Shown one piece after another: positions 1,090 through 20,463 of a stretch of DNA of 43,415 bases. How positions within the stretch are numbered: the first letter of the stretch is position 1; each line of letters begins with the position of its first letter. Origin of the DNA: a virus; the IMG/VR virus record IMGVR_UViG_3300008117_000132, positions 1 to 43,415 of that record. The stretch is one strand, 5' to 3'. Under the pieces are notes generated by a model. That model was given only the letters and a program-made list of their open reading frames with translations. It did no database searches and had not been told where the DNA came from. A program made the translations under genes and the position numbers.

Positions 1090-1365
1090 ATGATATACTT
1101 TACACATAGCAATAAAATTTATTACAATAGATTTGGCCAAAATATATCTAGTCAACTTCCCGAAGATAGTAAAAATTTCTGCAACTTTCACTATCCTAAT
1201 GATATCAAATTTGGCATTAATTACGACAGACTTGACAATCAAAAATTAAGAAATGAAAATTATTCGGCCAACACCACCTATTTCTTATACAATCAAGCCT
1301 TTAATTCTGATAATCCATCATTCCCCATAATTAACCAAACACCAGAAGACCTAGCTTCTGAATAA
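1090..1365 (+). CDS. Small virion-module protein A1 (91 aa)
   Basis: A 91-residue protein, first gene of the rightward accessory module. I chose ATG 1090 because AAGGAA lies just upstream. An in-frame TTG at 1057 overlaps the promoter motif. It is a diverged homolog of the 8955-9281 product: both share N-[KR]-IYY-[ND]-R, then NF-x-YP-[ND]-[DE], FG-[IV]-N-[YF] and a final LYxxxF. The IYYNRF string also resembles the start of the ~140-residue N-terminal module of the 11320, 13813 and 15959 genes. No known family is recognised. It is followed after 14 nt by the next gene of the block. A structural or docking role in the virion is inferred from context. Confidence 0.8.
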   Translation: MIYFTHSNKIYYNRFGQNISSQLPEDSKNFCNFHYPNDIKFGINYDRLDNQKLRNENYSANTTYFLYNQAFNSDNPSFPIINQTPEDLASE

Positions 1366-1379
1366 TCAAAGGAATTATC

Positions 1380-1772
1380 ATGTCAGAAATAACCATAAAT
1401 GACTTAGAAGATCCGGCCACAGTCATGAATTCAGACTTTTCTTCCTGCACAACTAATCTTATTGATTCTGTTGGCAGATACATATTTGTATTTGTTAATG
1501 ACCAATTATTCTATAGTGCTCAAATAGATGATTCTTTAAAAAAGTTTGATGAACAATATAATCCAGAAGTTATAGACGTTAACGATACAGAATTTATGAA
1601 TACTCTCTTGAACTATACTAATAAGGTTATACGTTCAGATAATTTAGGATCTAAGTATTTTATGACACTTAAAAATGATGATATTAATATAAAAGTTTAT
1701 CTTTCAACAGTATGTCAAAATAAATATGATGATACTACTTTACAATCCAAGCCAGGAATATTTAGACCATGA
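1380..1772 (+). CDS. Small virion-module protein B1 (130 aa)
   Basis: A 130-residue acidic protein with an AAGGAA ribosome site before ATG 1380. It is the positional and weak sequence counterpart of the 9288-9692 product: both have a V-x-x-x-[DN]-[DQ]-x-x-[FI]-Y strand, a charged middle ending KF, a late [IV]-K-[IV]-x-x-x-x-[VL]-C strand, and end in PGI-x-RP right at an ATGA overlap with the following gene. It has only two or three Cys and no signal peptide or membrane segment. Function is unknown. Its conserved place just before the C and metalloprotease genes in both copies suggests the four products work together. Confidence 0.75.
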   Translation: MSEITINDLEDPATVMNSDFSSCTTNLIDSVGRYIFVFVNDQLFYSAQIDDSLKKFDEQYNPEVIDVNDTEFMNTLLNYTNKVIRSDNLGSKYFMTLKNDDINIKVYLSTVCQNKYDDTTLQSKPGIFRP

Positions 1773-2095
1773 TTCATAACGCAAATAACATCCACTCAGC
1801 AAAATATGCTCCATCGTACTCTAACAATCAGAGTATAACTTCATCTAAACAAAAAGTATATCAACCATCATCTCATTCAATAGTTCAAGAAAGTAATAAT
1901 GGTGGAATTGATTCTATTATGAATGAAATAGAAAACGGATACAGATTGCCCAATTCATATATTCCTATAATTTCCACATCATACCTAAAGCCAGTATATG
2001 ACAATCCCAAATCAGTCTTTACAGTATCAGAAACTTTAGACCCTAATGATTTTCAACCAATAGTATCAGGTCTTACATCATATCTGAAAGATTAA
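1769..2095 (+). CDS. Small virion-module protein C1 (108 aa)
   Basis: A 108-residue Ser/Asn/Tyr-rich protein whose ATG overlaps the previous stop (ATGA), indicating translational coupling. It is the counterpart of the 9689-9964 product: both have an E-[SA]-N-x-GG-[IL]-D segment near the middle and a PVY-[DE]-x-P segment towards the end. The N-terminal half is low in hydrophobic residues and probably extended or disordered. No family is recognised. It directly precedes the metalloprotease gene by 2 nt. A linker, chaperone or propeptide-like partner for the protease is possible but unproven. Confidence 0.7.
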   Translation: MIHNANNIHSAKYAPSYSNNQSITSSKQKVYQPSSHSIVQESNNGGIDSIMNEIENGYRLPNSYIPIISTSYLKPVYDNPKSVFTVSETLDPNDFQPIVSGLTSYLKD

Positions 2096-2097
2096 CT

Positions 2098-3480
2098 ATG
2101 ATAAATAATACTGTTTTACCATCATCTGCAACTCTTAAAGAAGGTATTAAAGCAACATTTGTTTCTACGATCACAGGACGAATTCTAGGAACAACTTGGA
2201 CAGCTCGATACATATGGGAACGACAACTTCCAGGATCATCATCATGGACAATCGTTAGAGATATAACTAAAGATACTAGAAATTTAAATCCTAAAGATTA
2301 TGCGGGAAAAAGAGCTTCTTTAACAGATACTTTCATTACCAGCAAATCAACACTAGCCAAAAGTGGAAGAAAATTTAGATGTCGATTGGAACTAACAACA
2401 TACTATACTGAACAATCTACAGGAATATCATATGTTTATAATTGGACTTCTACCTCTTCTGAAGTAACATGGCTAGTAGAAAATAATGTAAAACTATTTG
2501 ATACTGATTCTTTTTTATCAGCACCCAGATTAAATAAAAACGGAGAATCTATAGGCTCAGGAGTTCCAGCACCATATTTAACTCCTCTCATCAACGCATG
2601 TAATAGATGGGCAAAATTCCTACGAATGAATAATAGCGTAATTACTAGCATACGATCTGAGCTAGGAGCAAATTGGAAAGGTATCACAATTAATTCAATT
2701 TATATTGATAATTTACAAGGAACAGATTTAGATGGAGCAATTGCTGCTTGTGGAATATCAGCTCACAAACAATTAAGTTCGTCTGCTCCTTATTTAAGAT
2801 GGAATACAACATCCATAGACTTATATATTAATACTCATTATCAAAATAATTATACACAAGCTGAATGGGAAGGAGTAATGCTGCATGAGTTAGGACATGG
2901 TTTAGGAATAGGATTCTATTGGGATCCTGAGTATACTAATGCTGATACAGTAAATACAGAACCTTATATTAAAATTGGAGTATATGAATGGTATAATGCT
3001 AGTTCTTTAAATACTGATTATTATCCTGGAATGGGTAGTATCTATGAGTCAGCTGGTAGAATATCTTATGATCCGGCATATTCATTAAGACCAGTTCCAT
3101 TACAAACAGTAATTGGAGCACACTGGTCGTGGTATTCTTTTCCTATACAATATAGTAAACCTTGTGAATGTAAATTTCCATGGAGACCTGGAGCATGTGA
3201 TAATATTGGAATGTGTCTTAAAGGTCAGAAATTACCAGGAATAGGTAATGATCTTATGGTTCCATATTTTGATCCAGATATACAACAAGTTATTACTCCA
3301 TTAACTATTAAAATGTTAACTCATTTTGGATATGAAGAAATAGTTCCTGGAGCATCAGAAAGTCCATTAACAACAACTTATAGATATCCTGATAATGGAT
3401 TTGTTATACAAAATACAGATAATATGCTGTATACTTGTAATCATGTATCAAAAGCTAAAAAAACTAATATAAATTATTAA
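2098..3480 (+). CDS. Leishmanolysin-like metalloprotease D1
   Basis: A 460-residue predicted zinc protease. Residues ~1-130 look like an Ig-like beta domain (repeated W, a late C-R-x-x-L strand). The catalytic part carries HELGHGLGIG, with H263, E264 and H267 as zinc ligands and base. The usual third metzincin His is not at the eleventh motif position (Phe there). Instead a GAHW at H342, about 79 residues on, fits the displaced third ligand of M8-type (leishmanolysin-like) enzymes, and a DLM Met-turn follows at M387. A short Cys cluster (CECKFPWRPGAC) lies between them. No clear signal peptide is seen, consistent with a protein assembled on virions. It is paralogous to the 9974 gene. The likely role is cutting host surface or extracellular proteins. 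Confidence 0.85.
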   Translation: MINNTVLPSSATLKEGIKATFVSTITGRILGTTWTARYIWERQLPGSSSWTIVRDITKDTRNLNPKDYAGKRASLTDTFITSKSTLAKSGRKFRCRLELTTYYTEQSTGISYVYNWTSTSSEVTWLVENNVKLFDTDSFLSAPRLNKNGESIGSGVPAPYLTPLINACNRWAKFLRMNNSVITSIRSELGANWKGITINSIYIDNLQGTDLDGAIAACGISAHKQLSSSAPYLRWNTTSIDLYINTHYQNNYTQAEWEGVMLHELGHGLGIGFYWDPEYTNADTVNTEPYIKIGVYEWYNASSLNTDYYPGMGSIYESAGRISYDPAYSLRPVPLQTVIGAHWSWYSFPIQYSKPCECKFPWRPGACDNIGMCLKGQKLPGIGNDLMVPYFDPDIQQVITPLTIKMLTHFGYEEIVPGASESPLTTTYRYPDNGFVIQNTDNMLYTCNHVSKAKKTNINY

Positions 3481-3508
3481 TATTATCCTCTACGGTCTTT
3501 ACTCTACC

Positions 3509-3817
3509 ATGAACATATATAATATAAAAAATAAAAACGAATACAACTTATTGATAAGAAATGATGAGTTTAAATATAGTAAACAATCTCTAAATTTTAA
3601 AAACTATCATTTTTACTATAAAGATCCTGTGTTACCAGGTTCAAATACTCCAGTATCTTTCAGTAATGACAGAATAATCAATAGCAGTTATATATTAACT
3701 TCTGATAATGATAAAAATAATCAAATTAATGATTTAGTAACTAAAGATAAATTATCATCACTATTACCAGTGGCCGACGATATTTGGAGAGCCACCTGGA
3801 GGAGAATTAAAAACTAA
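3509..3817 (+). CDS. Small virion-module protein E1 (102 aa)
   Basis: A 102-residue, Asn/Lys/Tyr-rich protein, paralogous to the 8564-8890 product. Shared features are M-x-IYNI-x-N-x-N at the start, P-[VL]-x-FSNDRI-[IL]-N in the middle and L-LP near a Trp-containing basic C-terminus. No convincing ribosome site precedes ATG 3509 (the upstream bases are pyrimidine-rich), unusual in this window. Its stop overlaps the next start (TAATG), so the two are coupled. The pairing with the large Cys-rich genes is mirrored: E1 precedes 3817-5073, while its paralog follows 5098-8541. Function is unknown, probably a structural adaptor. Confidence 0.75.
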   Translation: MNIYNIKNKNEYNLLIRNDEFKYSKQSLNFKNYHFYYKDPVLPGSNTPVSFSNDRIINSSYILTSDNDKNNQINDLVTKDKLSSLLPVADDIWRATWRRIKN

Positions 3818-5073
3818 TGGGATCTACATCACACAAACCAACATTTCCTCCTTTTAATAAACCACCTCTTGATCCGATAGGTAAAGATGAATTAGTTGTT
3901 GTTCATGATAGGCATTATTATGAACCATCATTAGATATGTTTCTTCCAATGAACCTTGGATATTCTGCTTATAGAGAGGAGATGATAGTATTACCAGGTA
4001 ATTCAGCATATATAACAACATATGCCGCCGCTCTTTACGAACAGAGAAGATTTACAAATGATAGCAAATCAGATATTTTAGAAAATCCTAACTCAGTTTT
4101 AAAAGATAATGATCTAGATCGTAATATAGAGACTTTTAGTCCCACCATAACACCAGTTAAAGATATATCAGCAGAACATGATAAAGTGAGTAATGAAGAT
4201 ATAATATCATCTTTAAAAAGATTATTTTGTTTAGTATTATTAGAAGATGATCCAATAACAGGAGCAAAAAAAGGAACGTATTTTGGCTGTGGATTAGCAG
4301 AAAGTCATGAAGAAGATTATGTTGCCATTGACGCATACTTTCTTAACACTGGAATACTATTCAAACCAAGTAAATATATAGGCGTTTATTGGGTTGGGTT
4401 GGATGTTACCATGGATTCTCCAAATATGTGTGATGCTTGTAAAAAATGGGCTGTAAAATGCAATCCTATAGAAGATAGATTATTTCTTAATGAATTAGGA
4501 TTAGATGCAGGTTTTACCGATGTCGAACCGTATGTTGACGGAGAGGATGAGAATGTTATTGGAGTATTTAAGTCTTTCAATGATGCCACACAGTTTTCGG
4601 ATAAATGCAATAAAGATATCACATGGGTATGTAAAGACCAAAGAGAGTTTCCTTATTATGCTATTGGAGATGCCATCTACAGATGTTTTCCATATAGCAA
4701 ATGCTGCGTACCAGACGGCTACGATACAGAAAATGAATGTATTGACAAATGCCCAAATCCTTGTCCAACATGTGCTGAGAATCATGTGAATATGGGATGG
4801 ATATCAGTTGCTGACCCTGAGGAGGGCTATGATGGATTGGATAAATGTCGAAAAGGAGACAGAATAGTCTGCTGTCCTTCAACAGTTTCTCTAGGATTGG
4901 TAAACTATAGCCAACCCATATTAGGTCCTAGCACAGAAGGCGGAACTGATGTAAAATGCTCATATTTCCCTATCGTAAATACTGAAGGAGATACAGTATA
5001 TGTTAATTGGCAAATTTCTAAACATCGTTGTAATGATGGAAGATGTTTAGATAACTGCGTAGAGTGCGACTGA
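3817..5073 (+). CDS. Cys-rich virion protein F1 with C-terminal knob
   Basis: A 418-residue protein with 22 cysteines, 15 of them in the last ~130 residues. The C-terminal ~100 residues match the end of the 1147-residue neighbour (5098-8541): shared [KR]-VCCP-type CC, an EGGTD-x-KC segment, a [VT]-NW-[QE]-I-[SA]-K strand and a terminal C-x-DG-x-C...C-x-x-C. The N-terminal half is acidic and unrecognised, with an isolated CDAC around residues 205-210. Such cysteine density suggests disulfides formed outside the cytoplasm or metal sites, fitting a surface-exposed virion protein. It starts by TAATG overlap with E1 and is 24 nt before its larger relative. Molecular function is unknown. Receptor binding by the shared knob is the simplest guess. 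Confidence 0.8.
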   Translation: MGSTSHKPTFPPFNKPPLDPIGKDELVVVHDRHYYEPSLDMFLPMNLGYSAYREEMIVLPGNSAYITTYAAALYEQRRFTNDSKSDILENPNSVLKDNDLDRNIETFSPTITPVKDISAEHDKVSNEDIISSLKRLFCLVLLEDDPITGAKKGTYFGCGLAESHEEDYVAIDAYFLNTGILFKPSKYIGVYWVGLDVTMDSPNMCDACKKWAVKCNPIEDRLFLNELGLDAGFTDVEPYVDGEDENVIGVFKSFNDATQFSDKCNKDITWVCKDQREFPYYAIGDAIYRCFPYSKCCVPDGYDTENECIDKCPNPCPTCAENHVNMGWISVADPEEGYDGLDKCRKGDRIVCCPSTVSLGLVNYSQPILGPSTEGGTDVKCSYFPIVNTEGDTVYVNWQISKHRCNDGRCLDNCVECD

Positions 5074-5097
5074 GCTACTAACTAAAGGGTCCAACAT

Positions 5098-8000
5098 ATG
5101 GCAATATTTAGTACAAATTTTAATAATCCATTACCCAAAACCAATATCGATTCTGACAATCCATGTTATTGGATAATATATAAACCTACTCCATATACTA
5201 TAAATTGTGGAGATAAAGATGTTTCATTAGAAGTTCCAATCGCTCCAGAAAAAATTAATCATAGTATTTCTACTACATGGTGGTCAAATAATCAACATTT
5301 AATTAAAGCTATTATTCCTTGTGATCAAATATCATTAGATATAAATGCTTCAGGACAAATCCCATATTGTGTCATATCACCACTAGACAATACTAATAGC
5401 TCGTATGTTAAAGACTGCGTATCCTTATATCCAGAAGCTCAAAAACTCATAGAATTTTTACAAAATAATGATTGTGCTCTAGACAATCCAAATCATCCAG
5501 TACTATCATGGTTTAACAGTATCATTGCCAATAATCCAGAAATAATAAATTCTTCACAAAAATTTTTAACAAGTTTTACTAAACCTTGCGATAACTGTAA
5601 TGTTTTTTGTGATTCTTGTGTTCCTTTTGGACAATATGCTGTAACTAATGCATTATTAGAGCATAATGGATTAGAAATTTCTGGCAGCAGCATATCAGTT
5701 AATAATGAAGATATAGATCTTAATGATTATTTTAATACTAATTTATTACCTATAGTATCATATTCCAAACAAAGCATATCAAATAAAATCTTTTTAACTA
5801 ATGAAACTTCTGATTTAAATTTTCAAATTCCATCTTGGTTAGGATTTAATAAAGCTCTGATTATAGATGATCAAGGCAACTTGTCTTCACATAACGTAAT
5901 ACCAGGTCAAATTCTTCAGCTATCAGATACTATTATTCTTGGCGCTACAACAGAATCTGCTCCGACAGGAGCATCTCTGACAGTATCTGCTCCATCTGCT
6001 CCTACAATTTTATCTTTTAGAATCTCCGACGGAGAGTTAGGAGCAAATACAGTTATTACTCTAGCACCTAATCCTAATATAAGCAATGAAGATATTGTAA
6101 AATCATATGCGTTTAGATTTAATGGAGTTGCAATACGTCCAAAAAGAGTAGGTCCAGCAGATGCTATACAAGATGTAGCAGAAGGTTTGTCAAATAACGA
6201 ATATGAATTCGAAGGATTATTAGATGGACAATATGTTACAGTGGCTTCTGTCGGATCAAATACTATAGGATCATACGGAGACTCAGTATTTTTAGGGTCA
6301 GGATGTTGCTATATTTCTGATGGAACAGTTTTTGATGGGATTGAAGAAAGTTGTCAAGAATATACAACAGATACAGAATTATCCTATACATGGAGTGAAA
6401 ATAGTTGTGCTCCAACAGGATCATGGAATGTCGGATATATCGTAACTGATAGTGGCTTATTTAAAGATAAATTTTTTATTACAGGATGTAACTCTGGAAC
6501 TTTTGATAGTTGGCTTAACTCATACAATTCTGGAATCGCAACTAATTTTAGAAGAAACGTAGACTGTTCGATTTTATCAACGGGTACCGTCTATGATACT
6601 TTAAGACCAATACCAACAGGAGATAATATTAATCTTGATATATCTCCAAGCCTATCTCTAACATTCGATAGTGTATTGTCACAAGGCTCAACAAAAATCT
6701 CATATACAGATAATATGTTTACTTTTTCTACAGATGCTGCAACTAGTGGAAATATCGGATTTGTAATTGCAAAACCTGAAAACTTTACATATGGGGATGA
6801 AATTTTAAGTTTATCTCATGAAGGAACAATAACTTCAGTACCATTCGTATTAGAAGGAAACAACATAGTATGTTCTAATGTATTCGCCAACAATACACAT
6901 TACAATCCAGCAGAGTCAGGATTTTTAGATATCAATTATTCTTCACAAGATATTAAGCCAGCTGTTATGCCCAGAACTCATACTATTGGAATTTTTCAGT
7001 TTGTTCCTGCTGGCGCTTCAGCTACTGCTCAATTTGGTCAGCATTATATAAATCTATTTCATACTCATTCTGATCAGATATATTTTACGGATGCTAACAA
7101 TAAAAGAGTTGATCTTAGTAGATATGTATCAAATTCATATTTAAGTCCAGTTATATATCCAGAACCAATAATTGTTCAATCATTATCTAATGATGAATTT
7201 TCAGCTTGTGTTGCTATTGGACCTCCTCAAGGATGGTGGGACCCTGATGCTAGAAATATAGAAAATGATTTTACATTACCATTAGCTCCTAATCTTCTGG
7301 AGTATCCTTGTGAGAATCCTTTCTATATCCGCGGCGGATATAATATAAACGATTTATTTACATTTGAATGTGGATGTTGGATTGTGTTAATGTCAAGACA
7401 ACAGGCATTAGATCTAGCTATAGCAATTGCTACAATTGTACTAACAATGGCGAGACTTTATAAATTATTATCCGGCTTACTTCCAGCCATATTATCTCTT
7501 GATAGTCAGATTTCTAGTAAAAATGCAGAAAAAGATAATTTATTAGATATAATGAAAAGAGCTACAGAGGCAATGCAGCGCATTGAGGGCGAACATCCTC
7601 AAATTCCTGGAGCTTTTCCTCCTGATTTTGGTTGGGTAAATCATATTGATAAGCATGATGATGGATACGATGGTCCTAGAGTTATAATTGTATTTCCAAC
7701 TTACGATGAAGATGGAAACAAAATTACATTATCTTGGGATGAATGGTTAGCGAAACATCCATTTGATGAAAATCTCCAAAATTTAAATAATATTTATGAA
7801 GATTATCAGGCTTGGGTTAATAATAAAGAACTAAGAGATGGAGCTGATTGGAATATGCGTGGTTTAGATAAAGAAATAGCAAAACTAGTTGCAGAAGTAG
7901 AGCCACTAAGAAGTGAAGCACAAGGTATACAAGCTCAGTTAGCAGGGTTAGCCGCTTCATTAGCTCTTCTAAAAAGTCAACTCGATCAGTTTATGAATGG

Positions 8001-8541
8001 ACCAGCTTTTACAGAAAGAAAAACTTGTAATCCTGGCTTTGATTTTTGTGCATGGAATGCGCTTTATGATGTTTGCGGTGGATCAGCAGAGCCCAGAGCA
8101 TATTGGGAAAAAGGATACTCTCCAGATGGAGTAAGATTAACAATGCCACAAGGATGGCCAAGCTGTGATTGTTGCTCAGATTGTGAAGCGTGTGCAGATC
8201 CTCCACCAGAAACAGGATGGGGAGAAGCAGCTTCAAGTCCTTGTCAAACATGTCCTGATGGATATACCTCATACTGGGTACAGCACTCAGTAGTTGATCC
8301 AGACGTTTTTGATCCTTCTGACCCTTGTGAAGTAAGCGATAAAGTATGCTGTCCTCCCGCTAACACTCTTGGGGCTTTTGGTTATACTCTTGAAGGTATC
8401 GGTCCAGTAACTGAAGGAGGAACAGATAAATGCAGATACTTTAACATATCAGATCCAACAGCACCAGTACTATCTACTAATTGGGAAATAGCAAAACGCT
8501 GTTGTGATGGAGAATGTGTAAATTATTGTGATGATTGTTAA
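5098..8541 (+). CDS. Giant Cys-rich virion protein F2 with hydrophobic and coiled-coil segments
   Basis: A 1147-residue multidomain protein. In order: an N-terminal domain with a CDNC...CDSC cluster near residues 163-175; a Ser/Thr/Gly-rich beta middle region like phage fibre and adhesin modules; a strongly hydrophobic stretch around 770-800 (LDLAIAIATIVL followed by LLSGLLPAIL) that could cross or bury in a membrane; coiled-coil-like segments around 800-830 and 921-966; then a Cys-rich end (19 Cys in residues ~977-1147) whose last ~100 residues are shared with the 3817-5073 product. The start at 5098 has AAAGGG upstream. No enzyme motif is evident. It is probably a large spike, fibre or host-penetration protein. 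The internal hydrophobic segment is unusual for a soluble fibre. Confidence 0.75.
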   Translation: MAIFSTNFNNPLPKTNIDSDNPCYWIIYKPTPYTINCGDKDVSLEVPIAPEKINHSISTTWWSNNQHLIKAIIPCDQISLDINASGQIPYCVISPLDNTNSSYVKDCVSLYPEAQKLIEFLQNNDCALDNPNHPVLSWFNSIIANNPEIINSSQKFLTSFTKPCDNCNVFCDSCVPFGQYAVTNALLEHNGLEISGSSISVNNEDIDLNDYFNTNLLPIVSYSKQSISNKIFLTNETSDLNFQIPSWLGFNKALIIDDQGNLSSHNVIPGQILQLSDTIILGATTESAPTGASLTVSAPSAPTILSFRISDGELGANTVITLAPNPNISNEDIVKSYAFRFNGVAIRPKRVGPADAIQDVAEGLSNNEYEFEGLLDGQYVTVASVGSNTIGSYGDSVFLGSGCCYISDGTVFDGIEESCQEYTTDTELSYTWSENSCAPTGSWNVGYIVTDSGLFKDKFFITGCNSGTFDSWLNSYNSGIATNFRRNVDCSILSTGTVYDTLRPIPTGDNINLDISPSLSLTFDSVLSQGSTKISYTDNMFTFSTDAATSGNIGFVIAKPENFTYGDEILSLSHEGTITSVPFVLEGNNIVCSNVFANNTHYNPAESGFLDINYSSQDIKPAVMPRTHTIGIFQFVPAGASATAQFGQHYINLFHTHSDQIYFTDANNKRVDLSRYVSNSYLSPVIYPEPIIVQSLSNDEFSACVAIGPPQGWWDPDARNIENDFTLPLAPNLLEYPCENPFYIRGGYNINDLFTFECGCWIVLMSRQQALDLAIAIATIVLTMARLYKLLSGLLPAILSLDSQISSKNAEKDNLLDIMKRATEAMQRIEGEHPQIPGAFPPDFGWVNHIDKHDDGYDGPRVIIVFPTYDEDGNKITLSWDEWLAKHPFDENLQNLNNIYEDYQAWVNNKELRDGADWNMRGLDKEIAKLVAEVEPLRSEAQGIQAQLAGLAASLALLKSQLDQFMNGPAFTERKTCNPGFDFCAWNALYDVCGGSAEPRAYWEKGYSPDGVRLTMPQGWPSCDCCSDCEACADPPPETGWGEAASSPCQTCPDGYTSYWVQHSVVDPDVFDPSDPCEVSDKVCCPPANTLGAFGYTLEGIGPVTEGGTDKCRYFNISDPTAPVLSTNWEIAKRCCDGECVNYCDDC

Positions 8542-8563
8542 AACTAATTAAAAGGAAAATCTA

Positions 8564-8890
8564 ATGCCAATATATAATATTAATAATCAAAATAGCACCC
8601 AATATGATGCTCCAGTATTATTATCAAATAATAATATTACATTAAATAATAAGTATGGCTATAATTTTGATATTAGTTTACCAATTATTGATAATTTTAA
8701 AATTAAATCTAAATATTATCCATTAAATTTTAGTAATGATAGAATATTAAATAAAAGCCAAATAGTATCTAGTAACTTGTCTCGTGCTACAAATCATAAT
8801 CTTAGTATTAATGAAGAAAAATTTGGTAATTTACTACCATCTCAATCTAGCATACATATTGCTAATCCGTGGAAAAGGCCGAATAACTAA
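8564..8890 (+). CDS. Small virion-module protein E2 (108 aa)
   Basis: A 108-residue Asn-rich protein preceded by AAAGGA, paralogous to the 3509-3817 product (shared IYNI-x-N-x-N start, NFSNDRI-x-N centre, N-LLP and a Trp-Lys-Arg end). It follows the large F2 gene by 22 nt, so the pair order is inverted compared with E1-F1. No signal peptide, membrane segment or enzyme motif is seen. Probably an adaptor or capping protein paired with the Cys-rich proteins; this is inferred from synteny only. Confidence 0.75.
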   Translation: MPIYNINNQNSTQYDAPVLLSNNNITLNNKYGYNFDISLPIIDNFKIKSKYYPLNFSNDRILNKSQIVSSNLSRATNHNLSINEEKFGNLLPSQSSIHIANPWKRPNN

Positions 8891-8914
8891 GAATAGTATA
8901 AATCTATAAAAGTA

Positions 8915-8923
8915 GTGTATAAT
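8915..8923 (+). promoter_or_regulatory. Candidate late promoter motif GTGTATAAT
   Basis: GTGTATAAT (followed by ATA) sits 40 nt before ATG 8955, in one of the few sizeable gaps of the module, with a TATAAAAGTA stretch upstream. It is identical over 12 bases to the motif at 27017. No -35-like box is visible. Probably recognised by a phage-modified polymerase. Confidence 0.55.
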
Positions 8924-8954
8924 ATAGTAATACTACATAAAGGAATTTTATATT

Positions 8955-9281
8955 ATGGCTATTTATCAACCACAGATTCCTCCAACAGGATATCAGACCG
9001 CCGACCCATATGATATTTGGGAATTAAGTTTGACCGAATTCCCACCTACAAACTCTTATTATTGCAATAATAACAGAATCTATTATGACCGAAATGACAT
9101 AGATAAAAATGTTTTTAATCAACTTGATCAACAAGATAAATATCTTAGCAATTTTAGTTATCCTGATGAGCTAGCTTTCGGAGTAAATTTTGCAAGAGCT
9201 AATAATAGACGCTTAGGTGTTGATAATTTTAAAAGTGGAATGGTATATAATTTATATTTAAATACATTTATTACGGAGTAA
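8955..9281 (+). CDS. Small virion-module protein A2 (108 aa)
   Basis: A 108-residue homolog of the 1090-1365 product with a ~30-residue N-terminal extension. Shared: N-[KR]-IYY-x-R, NF-x-YP-[ND]-[DE], FG-[VI]-N-[FY], and a C-terminal [FL]-x-LY-x-N-x-F-like strand. AAAGGA lies 11 nt before the ATG and a late-promoter motif stands 40 nt upstream, so this gene opens the second copy of the A-B-C-protease block. Function unknown; structural role by context. Confidence 0.8.
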   Translation: MAIYQPQIPPTGYQTADPYDIWELSLTEFPPTNSYYCNNNRIYYDRNDIDKNVFNQLDQQDKYLSNFSYPDELAFGVNFARANNRRLGVDNFKSGMVYNLYLNTFITE

Positions 9282-9287
9282 TTATCA

Positions 9288-9964: not shown

Positions 9965-9973
9965 GGATAATAT

Positions 9974-11245: not shown

Positions 11246-11319
11246 TAGCATACTGAATAAATCTCAGAATGGGCAAACTTCTCCAAGTTTTAATAAATTT
11301 CAATGTGATACCATAAAAT

Positions 11320-12054: not shown

Positions 12055-12071
12055 AACAAGAAAGTGATTTT

Positions 12072-13748
12072 ATGGACATTTTAAATAGCATACAAATACA
12101 ATCACAACCAGACACTTGCTTAAGTAAAGAATTTTATTTTGTTATTCCAGAAAATATTGGAGGATATAATCCAGATTATTTATACTTTCTTGGAGAACCA
12201 GGAACAGTGGTGTCTATTCGATATCTTGGAGAAACACATACAGTAACTATAGGCTCTAATAATCTAGCATCTTATAACTTTCCTAGTTATAAACAACTTA
12301 GTATCTCTTATTCTCAATTATTGGTGCCAGATTATAGAGGCATAAAAATAGTATCAAGTAAAACTATTACATGTCACTATTTATATCGTAATGCTTATGC
12401 TTGTAATGGAACAGGACTATTACCAATAGAACAATTATCTAAATTATATTACATATGTCCATTCTTTTCACAAGGTCTTTATGCAACTGCGAACATTAAT
12501 ATAGTTAGTACATCAAATAATAATGTAATTACAATCACTAATTTAAAGAATAATGGGAAAAAAACATATACATTACAAGATGGACAAACCTTAAAACATA
12601 GATATGCAGGAGAGAGGGCTGGTAATGGACGCTTATTGCCAGGACCAGTATTTAAAATAGAAAGCACAGAAAAGATAGCTGTTTTTATAGATAGTCTCTG
12701 TTATGTTTGGGTAGGTGCGTGTAATTCTCAAATTTGTCAAATATATGGATATGAATATTTTGATAAAACTTTTATTTTACCATTAACCCAAAATTATAAT
12801 AATGTTATAGGATATAATCGTGAATGGAAAAATGATTTTGAGGGAGAGCACCTAGTTCTTCGTACTGGAGATGCTTTTAAGATTTTATCTGTAGATGCTA
12901 ACAATACCATTTCTATAAATGGAACATCAATAACTTTAGGACAATATGAGACTTATGAAAAATTATCTGTAACTAGTCCAACTATGATAACAGCAACATA
13001 TCCAATATTTGTATATCAATGTAAAAGAGGTATGGGTACAAACGATATTGGCGATGCGTCAATGAATGCTATTTTTCCATTCAATAGATTATCAAAAAGA
13101 TATGTTCTAGCACTTCCTCCATTGCCTGTTAGCGATACTAAAGATAATCCAAAATATTATGCTCTTATTGGTATCAAACAAAATGCGTTATCTAGTGTTA
13201 AAGTTAATGGTACACTATTAAATAGTACTGAATTAAATAATTTTATTACTATTCCAGGAACAGATTATGTTAGTGGCTGGATAGAATTATTAGGATCTAA
13301 AAATAGACTTGATGGATCTTCAGCTACTGCCTATATATTCGAAGCATCAGATAATTTTATTGTAATACTTGATGGATATAATTGGTATGATTCATATTTA
13401 TTTAGTGCTGGTGGAAGTATGTGTGAGAATTTAATACCGAATTTGCCAACCCCAAATCCAAATCCATCTGCTACTCCAACTCGCACTCCAACTCTTACCC
13501 CAACTCCAACTATAACTCAGACTCCTACCATAACTCTAACCCGCACTCAAACTCCAACACCTACTCCATCTCCAAGTATAGCTGCGTCCCCTACACCTAC
13601 TCCTACTCTTACTCCCACTATTTCACTTACTCCTTCTTATACCCCTACTCATACTCCTACTTGTACCCCTACTCCATCACATACTCCTCCTCCAGTAGCA
13701 TGTTGCTATACATTAGGAAATATTATTGATTTTACAATTGTGCCATAA
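12072..13748 (+). CDS. IgGFc-binding-like adhesin with Pro/Thr stalk
   Basis: A 558-residue protein. Residues ~1-460 resemble the IgGFc-binding N-terminal domain found in bacterial secreted and adhesive proteins: an opening FYFVIPEN, repeated beta strands, a VFIDS-x-C strand, QCKRG, a YVLALPPLP segment and a late FIVILDGYNWYDSY. A ~75-residue Pro/Thr stalk (TPTPT-type repeats) follows, then a very short end beginning VACCYT. The ACC after the stalk matches the SACCFC after the stalk of the next gene, so this end may be a truncated or minimal version of that C-terminal domain. AAGAAAG precedes ATG 12072. The likely role is binding host or environmental glycoproteins. It may instead be a generic fibre beta domain. 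Confidence 0.7.
   Translation: MDILNSIQIQSQPDTCLSKEFYFVIPENIGGYNPDYLYFLGEPGTVVSIRYLGETHTVTIGSNNLASYNFPSYKQLSISYSQLLVPDYRGIKIVSSKTITCHYLYRNAYACNGTGLLPIEQLSKLYYICPFFSQGLYATANINIVSTSNNNVITITNLKNNGKKTYTLQDGQTLKHRYAGERAGNGRLLPGPVFKIESTEKIAVFIDSLCYVWVGACNSQICQIYGYEYFDKTFILPLTQNYNNVIGYNREWKNDFEGEHLVLRTGDAFKILSVDANNTISINGTSITLGQYETYEKLSVTSPTMITATYPIFVYQCKRGMGTNDIGDASMNAIFPFNRLSKRYVLALPPLPVSDTKDNPKYYALIGIKQNALSSVKVNGTLLNSTELNNFITIPGTDYVSGWIELLGSKNRLDGSSATAYIFEASDNFIVILDGYNWYDSYLFSAGGSMCENLIPNLPTPNPNPSATPTRTPTLTPTPTITQTPTITLTRTQTPTPTPSPSIAASPTPTPTLTPTISLTPSYTPTHTPTCTPTPSHTPPPVACCYTLGNIIDFTIVP
13447..13695 (+). repeat. Low-complexity Pro/Thr-coding repeat (stalk)
   Basis: Imperfect tandem 6-base units (ACTCCA, ACTCCT, ACACCT types) encode Thr-Pro pairs in the 12072 gene. 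The varied third positions show selection for the amino acids rather than recent slippage. Encodes an extended stalk. Confidence 0.85.
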
Positions 13749-13767
13749 AACATAATATACTGATATG

Positions 13768-13776
13768 GTGTATAAT
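13768..13776 (+). promoter_or_regulatory. Candidate late promoter motif GTGTATAAT
   Basis: An exact GTGTATAAT 45 nt before ATG 13813, in a very AT-rich 64-base gap. It matches the motifs at 8915 and 27017, and suggests that the 13813-20463 genes can be transcribed from here. Confidence 0.55.
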
Positions 13777-13812
13777 TATATATTATAATCATATTAATAA
13801 TGGTACAAAATT

Positions 13813-15327
13813 ATGTCAAAATATATTATCAATAGTGGATTATTATCAAATAAACAAAATGATTTAGCCTATTATAATCGTTTTGAAACAGTACAAGACA
13901 CAGGTATTGTTCCTCCTAATAATTCTAATATTAGATATAATAATACATTATTTGACCAAAATAATAATTTATCTACATATATTAATAATGAGAAATCAAA
14001 TAATAATGCCAATTCTATAACAATAGATTGGACCCCTCAATCTGTTAGGAATTTTAAATATAATATATTACAAGATAAATTCAATGCTGGATATCCTAAA
14101 AATTATACTTATACTTTTTGTGATCAAAAATTATCTACAGTATTCAATATGGGATCAAAACACTTTAGTGTTGATCAAACTGTAGACACATCATATCCTA
14201 GATATCAATCCATAAGTATCGTAGAAGATAATATTAATAATCCATTCTTGTGTGGATTTACTCCTCCATCATGTCAATCTGTTATTTGTCCATCAGGACA
14301 AACTTTTGATCCAGCATCTTGTGCTTGTGTTAGTCCTCCATTATGTATTCCTCAACCTTTAGAGCCATGCTCTCCAACTATTCAGTATGCAACATTAAAA
14401 CCAAAAATTCAAGGATATGCATGGTACCTAGATAGTCCCAAAAATATTACTATTCCAGATATGGGAGTTTTTACTGCAACTTGCGGAGGTGGACATATTT
14501 GTGATTATACTTTATTTAGACCTATTCTAGTATTTCCTGATAATTCTACTATAGAAGCAAATAGAGATATTAATCTCAATAATGCTTTTGATCCAAATCC
14601 CAATAGAATTCCTGTTCCTGGTTTTATTGGTCTTCCTTACGAAAGATCTGATACTTTTGAATTTGTGGTTGATGATGTTTCTACTCTAGACGGAGCAAGA
14701 GTAGAGTTAGTGTGTCAAAATAGATATTGTCACGGTGGAGTAACTTTTATTGTTTTAGTTGCAGAAACAGTAGAAACAAATGAGAAAGTGTTAATATTTG
14801 CAACGTGTCTTGCTCCTGGTCCAGTAAAAAGCAAAGTTATAGGATATGTTGATTGTCCTGGGTCGGATCCTGGTCCATGCGATACTCCTCCTCCAACATC
14901 ATCTCCCACTCCTACTCCCACCGTGACCTCCACAGTTCCTGAAACACCAACTCCAACACCGACAGTGACTCCTACATTAACAGAAACACCAACTCCTACA
15001 CCAACATCAACAGTTACTCTCACACCAACTTTAACAACCACTCCAACACCAACTCCTAGTCCAGCAAATAATAGCGCATGCTGTTTTTGTGAAAATATAG
15101 GTAGTCCGTCTTTCCAATTCCACGGACCAGGTACAGTAGGAGGAGAACCAACTCAAGCTTGGTTTTTACTAGTACAAAATTGCGGAATAACAGGCGAAAT
15201 GTTAGAATCAACAAATACTATAACCATTAATTGCAATGGAACGCAGTATCAAGTCGAATGGACGTACTCCGGATTAGACAACTCATTTGGAGGAAAGATA
15301 TACGATGCAACAATCACCCCAATTTAA
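13813..15327 (+). CDS. N-module protein with Cys-rich segment and Pro/Thr stalk
   Basis: A 504-residue protein. Residues ~1-140 are the second copy of the shared N-module (AYYNRF, TGIVP, IRYNNTLFD, FCDQK). A compact Cys segment follows at ~151-180 (CQSVIC, then FDPASCACV), then a beta domain to ~355 (TFEFVVDDVSTLDG resembles extracellular adhesin strands), a Pro/Thr stalk (~359-417) and a C-terminal domain that opens SACCFC and ends in EWTYSG...TITPI. No catalytic motif is evident. ATG 13813 lacks a clear ribosome site, as does 11320. The 23-nt overlap with the following gene indicates coupling. Probably a surface fibre or adhesin docked through its N-module. Confidence 0.8.
   Translation: MSKYIINSGLLSNKQNDLAYYNRFETVQDTGIVPPNNSNIRYNNTLFDQNNNLSTYINNEKSNNNANSITIDWTPQSVRNFKYNILQDKFNAGYPKNYTYTFCDQKLSTVFNMGSKHFSVDQTVDTSYPRYQSISIVEDNINNPFLCGFTPPSCQSVICPSGQTFDPASCACVSPPLCIPQPLEPCSPTIQYATLKPKIQGYAWYLDSPKNITIPDMGVFTATCGGGHICDYTLFRPILVFPDNSTIEANRDINLNNAFDPNPNRIPVPGFIGLPYERSDTFEFVVDDVSTLDGARVELVCQNRYCHGGVTFIVLVAETVETNEKVLIFATCLAPGPVKSKVIGYVDCPGSDPGPCDTPPPTSSPTPTPTVTSTVPETPTPTPTVTPTLTETPTPTPTSTVTLTPTLTTTPTPTPSPANNSACCFCENIGSPSFQFHGPGTVGGEPTQAWFLLVQNCGITGEMLESTNTITINCNGTQYQVEWTYSGLDNSFGGKIYDATITPI
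14888..15063 (+). repeat. Low-complexity Pro/Thr-coding repeat (stalk)
   Basis: Thr-Pro-coding tandem units inside the 13813 gene, interrupted by Val, Glu and Leu. Second of three long stalks in the module. The antisense reading is an artefactual Val/Gly-rich frame. Confidence 0.85.
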
Positions 15328-15943
15328 TTTTCATTGTCAGTTTAGATGCGGTAATAACAGTCCAGCAATATGCAAATATCAATCACTAAGACTTGGACAT
15401 ATTGTTAAAGCTTCTTATTTATTTTGTAATAATAGTTGTCCTAAAAATATATATGAGGATGCACAGGAAGATGATAATTTTTTAAAAACATGTTTCAATA
15501 GACGATATGATATAAATTTTATTCAAGAAGTTATAGATAAATATAAAAAACAAACAACTATTACCATTCCCAAAATTTGGGATACTATCAATACTACACT
15601 AGTTCCGCTACTAAAAGATTACTCTTGGTTCAAAGATATAGGGCTCACAGGATCCATTATTGTTGATGGAGTAGAAAACCATAAAGATATAGATGTTGTT
15701 ATATATATCAATAATATCCATAGCTATACCGAATGGCACAATAACAATACGTTACCATCTCATATATCAGACTATAAAATTGATTATTACATTTATATTG
15801 ATCCTTACTGTCAGTTTTTTGTTTCTGTATGGCCTAACTCAAACAGTATTATCATAAATAAAACCTTTGAACATAATGTTAAAATTCCTGTTGGCTATAG
15901 TATTTCATATAATAATTTTAATTTTGAAAAATACCTTAATTAA
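15305..15943 (+). CDS. Predicted nucleotidyltransferase-fold protein with Cys-rich N-terminus
   Basis: A 212-residue protein. ATG 15305 is chosen because a near-perfect ribosome site (GGAGGAAAG, 15289-15297) precedes it; a TTG at 15287 is less likely. The N-terminal ~65 residues contain six Cys (11, 15, 23, 41, 45, 63) and may bind zinc. Around 114-134 the string LTGS...DIDVVIYI fits the polymerase-beta-type nucleotidyltransferase signature: GS at 116-117 followed by D128 and D130 as metal ligands. A third acidic residue could be D145-D160 region, not certain. Family examples transfer nucleotides to antibiotics, proteins (as in toxin-antitoxin pairs) or RNA. Target here is unknown. It is odd to find such an enzyme embedded among virion proteins. 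Confidence 0.6.
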   Translation: MQQSPQFNFHCQFRCGNNSPAICKYQSLRLGHIVKASYLFCNNSCPKNIYEDAQEDDNFLKTCFNRRYDINFIQEVIDKYKKQTTITIPKIWDTINTTLVPLLKDYSWFKDIGLTGSIIVDGVENHKDIDVVIYINNIHSYTEWHNNNTLPSHISDYKIDYYIYIDPYCQFFVSVWPNSNSIIINKTFEHNVKIPVGYSISYNNFNFEKYLN

Positions 15944-15958
15944 TTTCAGGAAATAATA

Positions 15959-17911
15959 ATGTCTATTTTTTCTATTAATAGCTCAATAAACACCAATCAT
16001 CAAAATTATAATGCATACTATAATAGATTTGATAATATTGGAAGTACCGGTGTCATACCATTAAATAAAGTAAATATTAGGTATAATAAAACACTGTTTG
16101 ATGATAATGCTAAAAATATTTATAATAGTACTTTTACCATTGATAATAGTAGAAGATCCATTAGCACAGACCTTACTGCCACTTCTATAAGAGAATTTAA
16201 GTATAATATACTACAAAATTTATTTGAGCCAGGATATCCTCAAAATTCTCAATATAATTTATGTGACCAAAATATATCTACTACTTTTGCTATTAATGGA
16301 AATACTCATTTTAGCTCCAATCTCAAATCAGGAACAAGTTACCCAAATAACCACTATATAACAATAATAGAAGATCAGAATAATTATAATTTCTTTAATT
16401 GCAAGCCACTATTAAATACATATGTTTCCGATCAGATTAGAGCTTTAACTGCTAATAAAGATAGTAAATCTAGATATTTTGATGGTATTCAACAAAATGG
16501 TTTATATGGTCTTGATTTATTTTTAGATTTTTACCAAAATAATGTTAATAGTGGACTTGATGATGATTCAGAAAGAACCAAAAATTTTGTTAGAAATCCT
16601 AATTGTTGGGCTTATGATATTGATTTAACTTGCTGTTCGCCATGGAATATGCATCCCACATTAAGATTACCTGGAGGATATTTAACAACTACCAGTAATC
16701 ATACTGCTGGAACTCTTATTAGCCCTAGGCATGTTATATTCTGTAAACATGCTGATTTTTATCCACCCATAGGTAGTGATATTAGATTTATTACAAAAGA
16801 TAATCAAACTATAACAAGAAATATTACTAATATTATTAAAGTACAACCTATTTCTGGTAATGGGGCTACCGATTATGCTATAGGATTATTGGACAGCGAT
16901 GTTCCTGACTCTATCAGTTTTGCTAAAGTTTTACCAGATAATGCTTTTGAAAGAATGCAATTAGAATGGTTAACTCCTGGATTACCTGTTGGAAATATTA
17001 TAAATAAAATACATATTATACAATTAAATCAAGATAAAAGTGTAAGAATAAGTGGATTAGGCTTATGGTTTAATGTATGGTTCTATTTAACAAATTCTGG
17101 AGGCATAGATAATTCATTACAAGAATTTATTTTTAATATAAGACTATATGATTCTGGTAGTCCTAATTTTCTTGTAATAAATAATGAACCCATCCTCATA
17201 GGATTAGATTTGGGACCTAATAGAATACATCAACATAGACTAGATATTAATACAGTAATGAATCAATTAGGAGGAGGATACGAATTAACATCATACAATC
17301 TAGATAATTTTGCAGAATGTGTTGCCCCAAGTTTATCTTCGTCTCTACCACCAACGCCATACCCAACTCCTTCAGCAGCACCTCCACCACCACCAAATTA
17401 TCCCGCTATTTTATATGGTTGTGAAATTGTTAATAATAATGGAATTCCTGATACTTTTACCTTTAGATATGTTGGATCATATGTATGGTTAGATTCTGGA
17501 CGATATGCATATTTATACTATGATTCTAATGATAGTTTATGGAAAATTAATATTAATTATTTAGATTCTTATTATTCAGATGATATTTTTGGAATATGGA
17601 AAATTCTTTCAGACCAAGCTATTCCAGGATACAATATAGATGATCCTATTTCAGGATATATATCATCAAATAGTGATTGTTCTCAGTCATTGTCTACGCC
17701 AACACCAACACCAACGGTAACTTCTACTCCAACTTTAACTCCGACACCTACTTTAACAATTACTCCTACGCAAACGCCAACACCAAGTGCAACACCAGTA
17801 ACTCTGATTTCATTTACTAGAAGTAATGCTTATGCTGTGAGTTCAGATAATAATTGGGGCGTATTAAGAGGTGTTATAACAAACAATATTCCTAACTGGG
17901 GTCAATCATGA
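15959..17911 (+). CDS. N-module protein with trypsin-like serine protease domain
   Basis: A 650-residue protein with AGGAAA before ATG 15959. Residues ~1-145 are the third copy of the shared N-module (AYYNRF, TGVIP, IRYNKTLFD, LCDQN). Residues ~200-420 look like a chymotrypsin-fold protease: AGTLISPRHV with candidate H264 (in CKHAD rather than the usual AAHC), D305 in DYAIGLLD, and S399 in YDSGSP, the equivalent of GDSGGP. A Pro-rich linker (PTPYPTPS...PPPPP, ~460-475), a beta domain and a Thr/Pro stalk (~580-612) follow, ending in a short tail. It overlaps the subtilase gene by ATGA. Likely a virion-anchored protease. If any triad residue is misassigned it would be an inactive homolog. Confidence 0.75.
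   Translation: MSIFSINSSINTNHQNYNAYYNRFDNIGSTGVIPLNKVNIRYNKTLFDDNAKNIYNSTFTIDNSRRSISTDLTATSIREFKYNILQNLFEPGYPQNSQYNLCDQNISTTFAINGNTHFSSNLKSGTSYPNNHYITIIEDQNNYNFFNCKPLLNTYVSDQIRALTANKDSKSRYFDGIQQNGLYGLDLFLDFYQNNVNSGLDDDSERTKNFVRNPNCWAYDIDLTCCSPWNMHPTLRLPGGYLTTTSNHTAGTLISPRHVIFCKHADFYPPIGSDIRFITKDNQTITRNITNIIKVQPISGNGATDYAIGLLDSDVPDSISFAKVLPDNAFERMQLEWLTPGLPVGNIINKIHIIQLNQDKSVRISGLGLWFNVWFYLTNSGGIDNSLQEFIFNIRLYDSGSPNFLVINNEPILIGLDLGPNRIHQHRLDINTVMNQLGGGYELTSYNLDNFAECVAPSLSSSLPPTPYPTPSAAPPPPPNYPAILYGCEIVNNNGIPDTFTFRYVGSYVWLDSGRYAYLYYDSNDSLWKININYLDSYYSDDIFGIWKILSDQAIPGYNIDDPISGYISSNSDCSQSLSTPTPTPTVTSTPTLTPTPTLTITPTQTPTPSATPVTLISFTRSNAYAVSSDNNWGVLRGVITNNIPNWGQS
17696..17793 (+). repeat. Low-complexity Pro/Thr-coding repeat (stalk)
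   Basis: Thr-Pro units near the 3' end of the 15959 gene, the shortest of the three stalks. It lies immediately before the subtilase gene. Confidence 0.8.
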
Positions 17912-20463
17912 AAAAAAAATATTCTCTTGTATTAAAAAAGAATTGCAATAAAGAACAGTTTAAATCAGATTTATCTGGTATATCATCACTAGAGTTTATA
18001 CCTAATAGAGAATGTGATATTATTGATATTGTTGATTCTAGAGCACTATTTACTGAGTTAACAGATGAAGAAGTTAACACTTTAAAAAATGATCCAAGAG
18101 TTTATAGTATACAACAAACTATGCCATTAGGAAAACTAGAACCGGCAGTAATATTTCCGGTACAGAGTAGCGGAGTAGGACCAAAGCTACAACCAAAATT
18201 TTATCAAAATAAACAAAATCATACTAATATTAATGATACTGTATTTAATACTCAAGCTTTAACACAACAAGCCTACGTATCAAATCTCCCAGACGGTTCT
18301 GGTGTGGATGTTGTGATTGTTGATGGTATTATTTCTGGCAAATCATCACAAACTTTTTATTCTACAATATTATTTAGCAATACTGATATTCATCCAGAAT
18401 TTTTAGACTCAAATGGAAATTCTAGAGTAGAATTAATCGATTGGAATACCTATGTTAACGAGCCATCTTCATATCCATATCAGTCTATTATAGAAAACGC
18501 AAATCCATCTGTTATGGATAATAATATTCACGGAACACACGTTGCAGGAACAGCTTGCGGCAAAACATTAGGATGGGCAAAAAATAGTACAATATTTAAT
18601 ATTTCTCCATACAATGGCCCACTTGCAGCAAATGAATTTAAATTTTTAACAGCAATTAAAAATTGGCATTTATCAAAAACAAATAATAGACCAACAGTTA
18701 CTAATCATAGTTATGCCTTCCGTCTTCCTGTGTTTGATACTAGATATATTAATAAAATTACAAAAGATGGAATAGAATATATTGCTCCTAGAGAAACAGA
18801 AAGGGCAATAGTAGAAGTCTCATCTATAACTCAAAGCGGTCAAATGGAATCTTTCAATATTATTAATTCTGGTAATGGATATACCAACAGACCAGATATA
18901 TCATTTAATGGTGGTGGCGGAGATGAAGCAACATTAACCATGGCTAGTGGCACTATAAAAGAAATAGTAATAACAAATATTGGATCGGGATATAATCCTA
19001 GTAGTCCACCAAATATGCTATTTTCTTCGTCGCCAGCTGGTCTAACAGCATCAGGAGTATGTTCTGTTAATGAGAGTGGACAAATTGACGGCATTAATAT
19101 GATAGAGTGGGGTAGTGGATATGATAATCCTCCTAGTATAACATTTGATGATCCAATTTCTGGAACAACAGCAACAGCCACAACAACTATTGGTTCTAAT
19201 TTTGTAAAATCCATTAATATTATAAATAGCGCTCCCGCATTGTTAAGAGCGACTATATCACTTTTGTATGATCCTCCATCTATGATAATTAGTGACGGAG
19301 GCTGTATAAAAGAAGCATTATGGAAATTATCAGAAGAAGGTAATTTGATATTTAAAAATCAACTTATTATAGTTGATGGATTATATAAAATAGCTACAAA
19401 AAAAACAATAATCAATGAAACAAGTTTTAAATATACATTATTGGGAGGGGAATATAACTCTATTCCAAATGTTTCATTTAGATATTGGAGTAGTGGAGGG
19501 CTTATAGCAGGACCACAAGCCAGGGCTGTTATAAATAATGAAGGTAAAATTTCTGAAATAATACCATACTGGATATTAGATCCATCATATAGTGTTGAAG
19601 GTGCTGGATGGTTTACTTCTATTCCTCAAGTTTACATAACAAATGGTGGAGGATTTAGTGAGCAAACATTAGAAGATTTTGAAATGGTATTGTCAACAGA
19701 TATATCTTCCATTGGTTTATTTTATCCTACTTATATTTGGATTAATAATGCAAGAAATATCATTATGGATTCAATTATAGAAGATCTTATCGAAGCTAAT
19801 ATTATAGTTGTTGGAGCAGCCGGTAATTTTAGTTGGAATATAAAAAGACCAGGTTCTAGCGGATATGATACTACGCTTGAAGTTAATTATTGTAATAATT
19901 TAAAAGATAATCCTTCAATACCATATGAAGATAATATTGATAATTTTTTACAATATCCTACTTTTAATCTACCTTGGGGCGATAATATATATGACACATT
20001 ACCATTACAAGGGTCAAGTCCAACAGCAGCTAGCGGAGTAATATGTGTTGGATCTATGTCCACTTCATGTTGTCCAGAAATAAAATCTGATTTTAGTAAT
20101 ACAGGAGAGAGAATAGATATATATGCAGCAGGAAGCAATATCCCTTCAGCTTTAGTATTTAATAATACCGATTGGTATCACCTAAGTAACAAGCTATATG
20201 AAGCTGCAGACTATCCAACCGATAATAGATTTGGCATTATCAAGCTTAATGGAACTAGTATGGCTAGTCCACAAGTTTGTGGAGCAATAGCAAGTTATTT
20301 AACAGAAGGTAACGTAGCGAGATCAGAAAATATAGTAGAGCAAGTTAGACAATGGATTAGTGATAATGGAATACCAGCATTATCCGGCTTGGCTTTCCCA
20401 TATAATCTTTCTAATGGAACAAATAAAATTTTACATTTTCCTAATATAACAGTGCGATACTGA
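17908..20463 (+). CDS. Subtilisin-like serine protease with large insertion
   Basis: An 851-residue S8-type protease starting by ATGA overlap. The N-terminal ~90 residues look like an I9-type propeptide (LTDEEVNTLKNDPRVYSIQ). The triad is D139 (VIVDG), H208 (IHGTHVAGT) and S784 (NGTSMASP), with oxyanion N640 (GAAGN). The H-S gap of 576 residues is far larger than in ordinary subtilisins. Residues ~310-540 form an insertion with repeated GxGY-x-x-x-P-x-[IM]-x-F units (NGYTNRP, GSGYNPSSPP, GSGYDNPP, and a weaker GGEYNSIP), a repeat type met in phage structural proteins. Transcription from this gene meets the hairpin at 20475. Likely a virion-borne protease matured by removal of its propeptide. 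Confidence 0.85.
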   Translation: MKKKYSLVLKKNCNKEQFKSDLSGISSLEFIPNRECDIIDIVDSRALFTELTDEEVNTLKNDPRVYSIQQTMPLGKLEPAVIFPVQSSGVGPKLQPKFYQNKQNHTNINDTVFNTQALTQQAYVSNLPDGSGVDVVIVDGIISGKSSQTFYSTILFSNTDIHPEFLDSNGNSRVELIDWNTYVNEPSSYPYQSIIENANPSVMDNNIHGTHVAGTACGKTLGWAKNSTIFNISPYNGPLAANEFKFLTAIKNWHLSKTNNRPTVTNHSYAFRLPVFDTRYINKITKDGIEYIAPRETERAIVEVSSITQSGQMESFNIINSGNGYTNRPDISFNGGGGDEATLTMASGTIKEIVITNIGSGYNPSSPPNMLFSSSPAGLTASGVCSVNESGQIDGINMIEWGSGYDNPPSITFDDPISGTTATATTTIGSNFVKSINIINSAPALLRATISLLYDPPSMIISDGGCIKEALWKLSEEGNLIFKNQLIIVDGLYKIATKKTIINETSFKYTLLGGEYNSIPNVSFRYWSSGGLIAGPQARAVINNEGKISEIIPYWILDPSYSVEGAGWFTSIPQVYITNGGGFSEQTLEDFEMVLSTDISSIGLFYPTYIWINNARNIIMDSIIEDLIEANIIVVGAAGNFSWNIKRPGSSGYDTTLEVNYCNNLKDNPSIPYEDNIDNFLQYPTFNLPWGDNIYDTLPLQGSSPTAASGVICVGSMSTSCCPEIKSDFSNTGERIDIYAAGSNIPSALVFNNTDWYHLSNKLYEAADYPTDNRFGIIKLNGTSMASPQVCGAIASYLTEGNVARSENIVEQVRQWISDNGIPALSGLAFPYNLSNGTNKILHFPNITVRY

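Follow-up and report, generated by a model that had tools for sequence, protein, structure and literature searches.

A phage gene module encoding M8-like metalloproteases, a subtilase and a predicted chymotrypsin-like protein upstream of the packaging genes

Introduction

Of the enzymes that phages carry on their particles, most of those known cut sugars or peptidoglycan. What, then, would a large aquatic phage do with four predicted proteases that are encoded in one run of genes beside those that build its head? The DNA analysed here is a linear IMG/VR virus record of 43,415 bases (this whole stretch is called the window below), and the module in question lies at 1,057–20,463 on its + strand, upstream of the terminase, portal and capsid genes. 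The original prediction held that two leishmanolysin-like metalloproteases, one chymotrypsin-like protease and one subtilase lie there in a single rightward run, and that they suggest a surface apparatus which digests a protein coat or S-layer of the host or processes its own partners. The run is as described, every gene from 1057 (probable ATG at 1090) to 20463 being on the + strand, and three of the four protease assignments, the M8-like pair and the S8 protein, are firm; the chymotrypsin-like protein is a motif-level prediction. We put at about 0.55 the probability that the module encodes swappable virion-surface fibres with protease tips that act on host surface proteins.

Results

Integrity and lineage of the contig

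The right half of the window carries terminase, portal-like, prohead-type, decoration-like, major capsid and fibre-like genes. The packaging and head block (24985–32312, + strand) adjoins the module; its terminase was identified by PHROG and tblastn and its capsid gene by phage G gp27 and IMG/VR relatives, and the genes between these two are candidates that were named from their position. The capsid protein has a distant likeness to the major head protein (gp27) of Bacillus phage G, and at least 598 capsid-related stretches are present in IMG/VR, on contigs of up to 244 kb. The terminase is closest to those of Bacillus phages such as Staley and Slash and of Microcystis phage MaeS, at ~24% identity. 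A 123-kb relative, G025, encodes a very long protein that resembles a tape measure, and no sheath was recognised in that contig, so the phage is likely a long-tailed siphovirus.

A chimeric origin of the contig was ruled out: a second contig, G023, is identical to the window over its right part, a third, G024, is collinear with it through the module and the packaging genes, and the GC-richer left 1 kb of the window also shares stretches with G024, which counts against a chimera as well. These first 1000 bases (GC 0.43, against ~0.31 elsewhere) contain short minus-strand frames, apparently a series of small early genes; the stretches shared with G024 lie at the left end of that contig. Two further genes lie to the right of the module. 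A lipoprotein-like small protein (20530–20838, − strand) marks the module boundary, has homologues in G001, G024 and G025, and could be a putative exclusion or envelope protein, and a GDP-mannose 4,6-dehydratase gene (22698–23690) is kept beside the terminase block in ~60 loci of the lineage.

The module in close relatives

The module is present in five contigs, the window included, whose capsid proteins are 98–100% identical, and its order upstream of the packaging genes is conserved in G024, G025, G001 and G023. The last of these comes from another metagenome and belongs to the same species, and its sequence matches the window exactly from a point inside gene 13813 as far as the capsid gene. 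The search of metagenomes for the same neighbourhood, which had been proposed as a check, found it, complete with the four proteins, in the independent contig G024. Purifying selection acts on every module unit tested (dN/dS 0.08–0.53), and since all four protease frames are intact in G024 and under such selection, the observation goes beyond chance. The four do not form one fixed apparatus, as the original prediction had implied: G025 and the incomplete G001 show M8-2 only, and one of the two M8 proteins of G024 is presumably dead (below).

The M8-like metalloproteases

M8-1 (2098–3480, + strand) consists of an Ig-like N-terminal region and a catalytic domain with HELGH at residue 263, the third His in GAHW at 340 and an NDLM Met-turn at 384, and M8-2 (9974–11245, + strand) has an Ig-like N-terminal domain followed by HELGH at 257, GVHW at 325 and an NELM Met-turn at 355. 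Both genes encode HExxHxxG, a third His ~70–80 residues further on and then a Met-turn, features that they have in common with the leishmanolysins of MEROPS M8 and Pfam PF01457; unlike those, the window pair is phage-encoded, has no secretion signal, stands on an Ig-like N-terminal region and falls below the Pfam cut-off. Neither protein matches PF01457 on its own, and because that cut-off is not reached we call them M8-like rather than M8. A family profile made from the pair, a Pfam-confirmed bacterial M8 protein and the marine phage protein BAQ94410 has leishmanolysin (1LML) as its best match in the PDB (E 0.0023), and the alignment runs through HExxH, the third His and the Met-turn. This E value is modest, so the weight rests on the residue-by-residue agreement; with 1LML as the best solved match of the family profile, the prediction of two leishmanolysin-like metalloproteases is borne out. 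The AlphaFold model of 9974 (pLDDT 58) has a confident Ig fold at its N-terminus and a catalytic C-terminal half of low confidence.

The two copies have different histories in G024. M8-1 is 91–92% identical there, and its synonymous divergence from the window is 0.098, compared with 0.3–1.0 for the other module genes, which suggests a recent exchange of M8-1. M8-2 is 47% identical over the aligned residues, and the G024 copy (12434–13687 of its upstream region; L129:5443–6696, − strand) reads HELGY where HELGH is expected, and its third His is missing. This copy, which accompanies an intact M8 paralogue, is presumably a dead protease, having lost two of the three zinc-binding histidines; the M8-2 motifs are intact in G001 and G025. 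Since it is catalytically dead, binding without cutting may suffice for this one protein. Its frame has nonetheless stayed intact at a dN/dS of 0.53, and it could be argued from this that the protease folds of the module are mainly protein-binding tips, that is, adhesins in which catalysis is dispensable. We regard that as quite unlikely, given that every genome seen has at least one M8 protein with all of its ligands, that nearly all M8 relatives (below) keep HExxH, the third His and the Met-turn, and that the S8 and chymotrypsin-like catalytic triads are kept in G024.

The subtilase

The last gene of the module (17908–20463, + strand) encodes a subtilase (S8) that matches PF00082 with E 3e-17 and 63.3 bits against a cut-off of 21.8. 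Its triad and oxyanion Asn are in place (D139, H208, S784 and N640) and are kept in G024, where the protein is 62% identical over the aligned residues; as a reading of the sequence the assignment is certain, and the one subtilase that had been predicted is confirmed. In alignments to leishmanolysin for the M8-like pair, and to subtilisins for this protein, the catalytic residues come into register. The catalytic domain is split by an insertion of ~330 residues that resembles phage structural-protein families and repeats.

The N-terminal 275 residues belong to PHROG 9158, whose members related to this subtilase adjoin baseplate genes in cyanophages. The subtilisin-like proteases of the cyanomyophages S-CREM1 and Sf-FR1 (PHROG 9158) are homologous to it in these N-terminal ~275 residues and in the S8 catalytic parts, but the window protein has a larger insertion, belongs to a multi-protease module upstream of the terminase gene, and comes from a lineage that is unrelated and has a capsid protein like that of phage G.

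The chymotrypsin-like protein

The subtilase gene joins the gene before it (15959–17911, + strand) by an ATGA overlap. The protein encoded by the latter has the N-terminal domain shared by several module proteins (below), a domain with H264, D305 and S399, and a Pro/Thr stalk. The order of the three residues and their spacing (41 and 94 residues) fit a chymotrypsin-like protease, and all three are kept in G024, where the whole protein is 84% identical over the aligned residues and the domain 87%, with a dN/dS of 0.19. Among 1673 proteins the His-Asp-Ser pattern with DSGxP matched three orthologues only, a count to be read with the fact that the pattern was written after the sequence had been seen. 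Profile and structure tests added nothing to this: there was no match to the S1 family in PF00089, the PDB or a DegP/Q/S profile, for which reason the protein is not filed as S1; the AlphaFold model of the domain has a pLDDT of 35, and Foldseek and profile comparisons were uninformative; and no homologue of the domain was found in the phage and plasmid collections. The chymotrypsin-like identity is therefore given here as a prediction from motif and spacing.

Among the relatives, the chymotrypsin-like and subtilase genes, which are translationally overlapping, are either both present or both absent. In G025 the counterparts of 15287 and 20530 are immediate neighbours, and because both protease genes are skipped at that place the two behave as one unit. 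Such joint travel, together with the encoding of proteases beside many multi-domain surface proteins, is what would be expected if the proteases matured or trimmed surface proteins of the phage itself (in the processing of fibres or in self-release) rather than cutting host proteins. This seems unlikely to us: G001 and G025 have similar stalked and Cys-rich proteins without the chymotrypsin-like and subtilase genes, many unrelated phages have M8 domains joined to stalks, and a head-maturation protease would vary less.

Cassettes, cysteine-rich proteins and stalks

Each M8 gene closes a four-gene cassette, and the two collinear cassettes, 1057-1380-1769-2098 and 8955-9288-9689-9974, are to judge from their paralogous genes old duplicates. 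All of the genes described in this section lie on the + strand. The first genes encode small proteins (1057–1365, with a probable start at 1090, and 8955–9281) that are paralogues of one another (35% identity, E 1.6e-12). The second genes, also paralogues, encode a 130-aa protein ending in PGIFRP (1380–1772) and a 134-aa protein ending in PGIARP (9288–9692); of the module genes measured, the latter is under the strongest purifying selection, with a dN/dS of 0.08. The third genes encode a small protein (1769–2095, overlapped by the 1380 gene by 4 bases) and a small Pro/Thr-tailed protein (9689–9964), which are counterparts by their order and by a homologue in G001 that links them.

Between the cassettes lie a pair of paralogous genes for small proteins (3509–3817 and 8564–8890) and, enclosed by these, two genes for Cys-rich proteins. 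That at 3817–5073 has 22 Cys and a C-terminal domain in common with its neighbour (40% over 110 aa), and the neighbour (5098–8541), a 1147-aa protein with 40 Cys, has homologues in G024 (63%) and G025 (33%). Residues ~773–800 of the larger protein form a hydrophobic helix, which is followed by a coiled-coil-like stretch.

Downstream of the second cassette, a ~140-aa N-terminal domain is shared by the proteins of 11320, 13813 and 15959, and it may serve for docking. In the first of these (11320–12054) it is followed by a second domain of ~80 aa, and in the second (13813–15327) by a Cys-rich middle, a Pro/Thr stalk and a C-terminal head. A comparison of the shared domain with the small cassette proteins gave no support for a common origin. 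The intervening gene (12072–13748) encodes a protein with a Pro/Thr stalk (residues 451–550) and an IgGFc_binding domain (PF17517; E 5.4e-23, 82.1 bits against a cut-off of 25.6) that is present in G024 and G025 too; no match to this protein was found in the phage or plasmid collections. The Cys-rich (3817 and 5098) and stalked (12072, 13813 and 15959) proteins that had been foreseen are thus present, and in place of the lectin-like proteins, of which none was found, there is this IgGFc_binding domain. The expectation that no metabolic genes intervene nearly holds, with the one reservation that the Cys-rich protein of 15287–15943 has a nucleotidyltransferase-like motif (TGSIIVDG..KDIDVVIY..KIDYY). 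That likeness is to the motif, with no match in Pfam or in PDB and PDB-profile searches; the protein is kept at 91% in G024 and at 61% in G025, and the motif is kept in G025.

In the module genes of L115 (G001), G024 and G025, unrelated proteins have Pro/Thr repeats followed by a short terminal tail (SIFNIP, for example), and small proteins begin with M-x-I-(F/Y)-N-I; the tails are possibly shared attachment tails.

No secretion signals were seen in the module proteins, so they must act in the cell or ride on the particle. Proteins of the cytosol would also lack such signals, and the module of the window lies upstream of the terminase gene and outside the tail block, which counts against virion fibres and would suit action inside the infected cell or after release by lysis (takeover of the host, breakdown of proteins of the host or of competitors, or release of nutrients). 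We hold this to be very unlikely in view of the stalked and Cys-rich architecture and of relatives in which M8 genes lie inside the structural block (below), and favour the particle over the cell because of that architecture and the synteny with the structural block.

M8-like proteins of other aquatic phages

A scan of IMG/VR with the M8 profile A8 found 32 contigs with M8-like proteins (a scan with the single M8-2 protein had poor seed peptides and gave no matches). About 28 of these, some of them duplicates of each other, lie outside the sub-lineage when the G001, G024 and G025 matches are left out. HExxH is 135–230 residues from the C-terminus in nearly all of the relatives; nearly all keep the third His and the Met-turn, and the domain is preceded by spacers of up to ~2,000 residues made of fn3, RCC1, FGE/C-type-lectin-fold or Pro/Thr stalks. 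Two examples, L158:1941–8864 and L167:6411–8555, have M8 tips on RCC1-repeat and/or FGE/C-type-lectin-fold proteins; the FGE/C-type-lectin fold is one that variable receptor proteins of phages use. M8 genes in tandem occur again in L157, L169 and L172, and S8 genes are also present in 5 of the 25 M8-bearing contigs searched, G434 having two S8 genes that encode long proteins.

Six M8-bearing contigs have capsid proteins 76–89% identical to that of the window. In L163, L172 and L182 the M8 gene is between the capsid and neck genes and the tail tube and tape measure genes (these last two probable from their likeness to the G025 order), and such a position inside the structural block was seen in relatives whose capsid proteins are 76–86% identical. 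In L176 the M8 gene comes shortly after the capsid gene, and in L158 it is between sigma-like genes and the terminase gene, near the position of the window module. Beyond the lineage, the BAQ94410 protein of MedDCM-OCT-S31-C1 has, like these relatives, an M8-like catalytic domain behind a repeat stalk, and its gene adjoins a "cell wall/surface repeat" gene and a terminase gene; that phage differs from the window in being an unrelated podovirus with a single protease.

Possible hosts

The subtilase genes of wider relatives (L088, L089, L091, L092, L093 and L094) lie upstream of the same sigma gene, and in 6 of 6 distinct cases their products have, immediately ahead of the mature subtilase, an N-terminal motif of the type LExR/K/H-xLLS/T, which is present in none of the other frames among ~2,100. 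We take it to resemble the LEPR-XLL start of planctomycete surface proteins, and it hints weakly at planctomycete hosts. The NCBIfam LEPR model did not match these subtilases. The MAG contigs that hold the capsid gene give contradictory host taxa (Alphaproteobacteria, Flavobacteriales, Chitinophagia and SAR202), and 395 genomes of one MAG's phylum gave four weak matches to the M8 profile and none to the chymotrypsin-like profile. Because the NCBIfam model is silent and the other host hints conflict, planctomycetes are a lead only. One account (PMC3035269) describes planctomycetes as having a protein-stabilised wall, and this would agree with the lead.

Discussion

The indirect evidence for a surface apparatus is the stalked architecture, the synteny with the structural block, the absence of secretion signals and the subtilase homologues beside baseplate genes; it is the fixed set of four proteases that has to be given up. 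From these observations we infer a location on the virion, a docking role for the shared domain, a supporting role for the small genes and action on host protein. In the virion-fibre reading most of the long proteins would have three parts: an N-terminal one on the phage side, which is Ig-like or consists of the shared ~140-aa domain; a spacer that is rich in Pro and Thr or of Ig type; and an outer one that varies and might be an IgGFc-binding-like adhesin, a Cys-rich head, an M8 domain, the chymotrypsin-like protease or the subtilase. Adsorption would come first and the adhesin-like heads would then hold the particle, while the protease tips would cut host surface proteins and so clear a path or free the phage from unsuitable ones; the small genes before each M8 gene would probably help to fold, silence or attach the M8 protein. 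A protein coat or S-layer as the substrate is a guess.

Such proteins would be like depolymerase tailspikes and virion-associated hydrolases in having a structural stalk that presents an enzyme head where phage and host meet, and would differ from them in cutting proteins rather than polysaccharide or peptidoglycan. It is tentatively possible, although we would not count on it, that aquatic phages use a general class of stalk-tethered M8-like tips, to which some lineages have added subtilases and chymotrypsin-like proteases, in the role that depolymerase tailspikes have but with proteins as the target, and that the window is an extreme case in which four proteases are directed against protein-based envelopes, possibly those of planctomycetes. 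A literature search of incomplete coverage found no paper that describes leishmanolysin-like proteins of phage virions. The wider family of M8-like proteins on stalks is of more general significance, and of more interest, than the four-protease module itself. Recurring stalk-borne metalloproteases in large aquatic phages would, if true, mean a protein-cutting way through the host surface; they would also help to show which hosts uncultured phages infect, and new specific proteases might be obtained from them.
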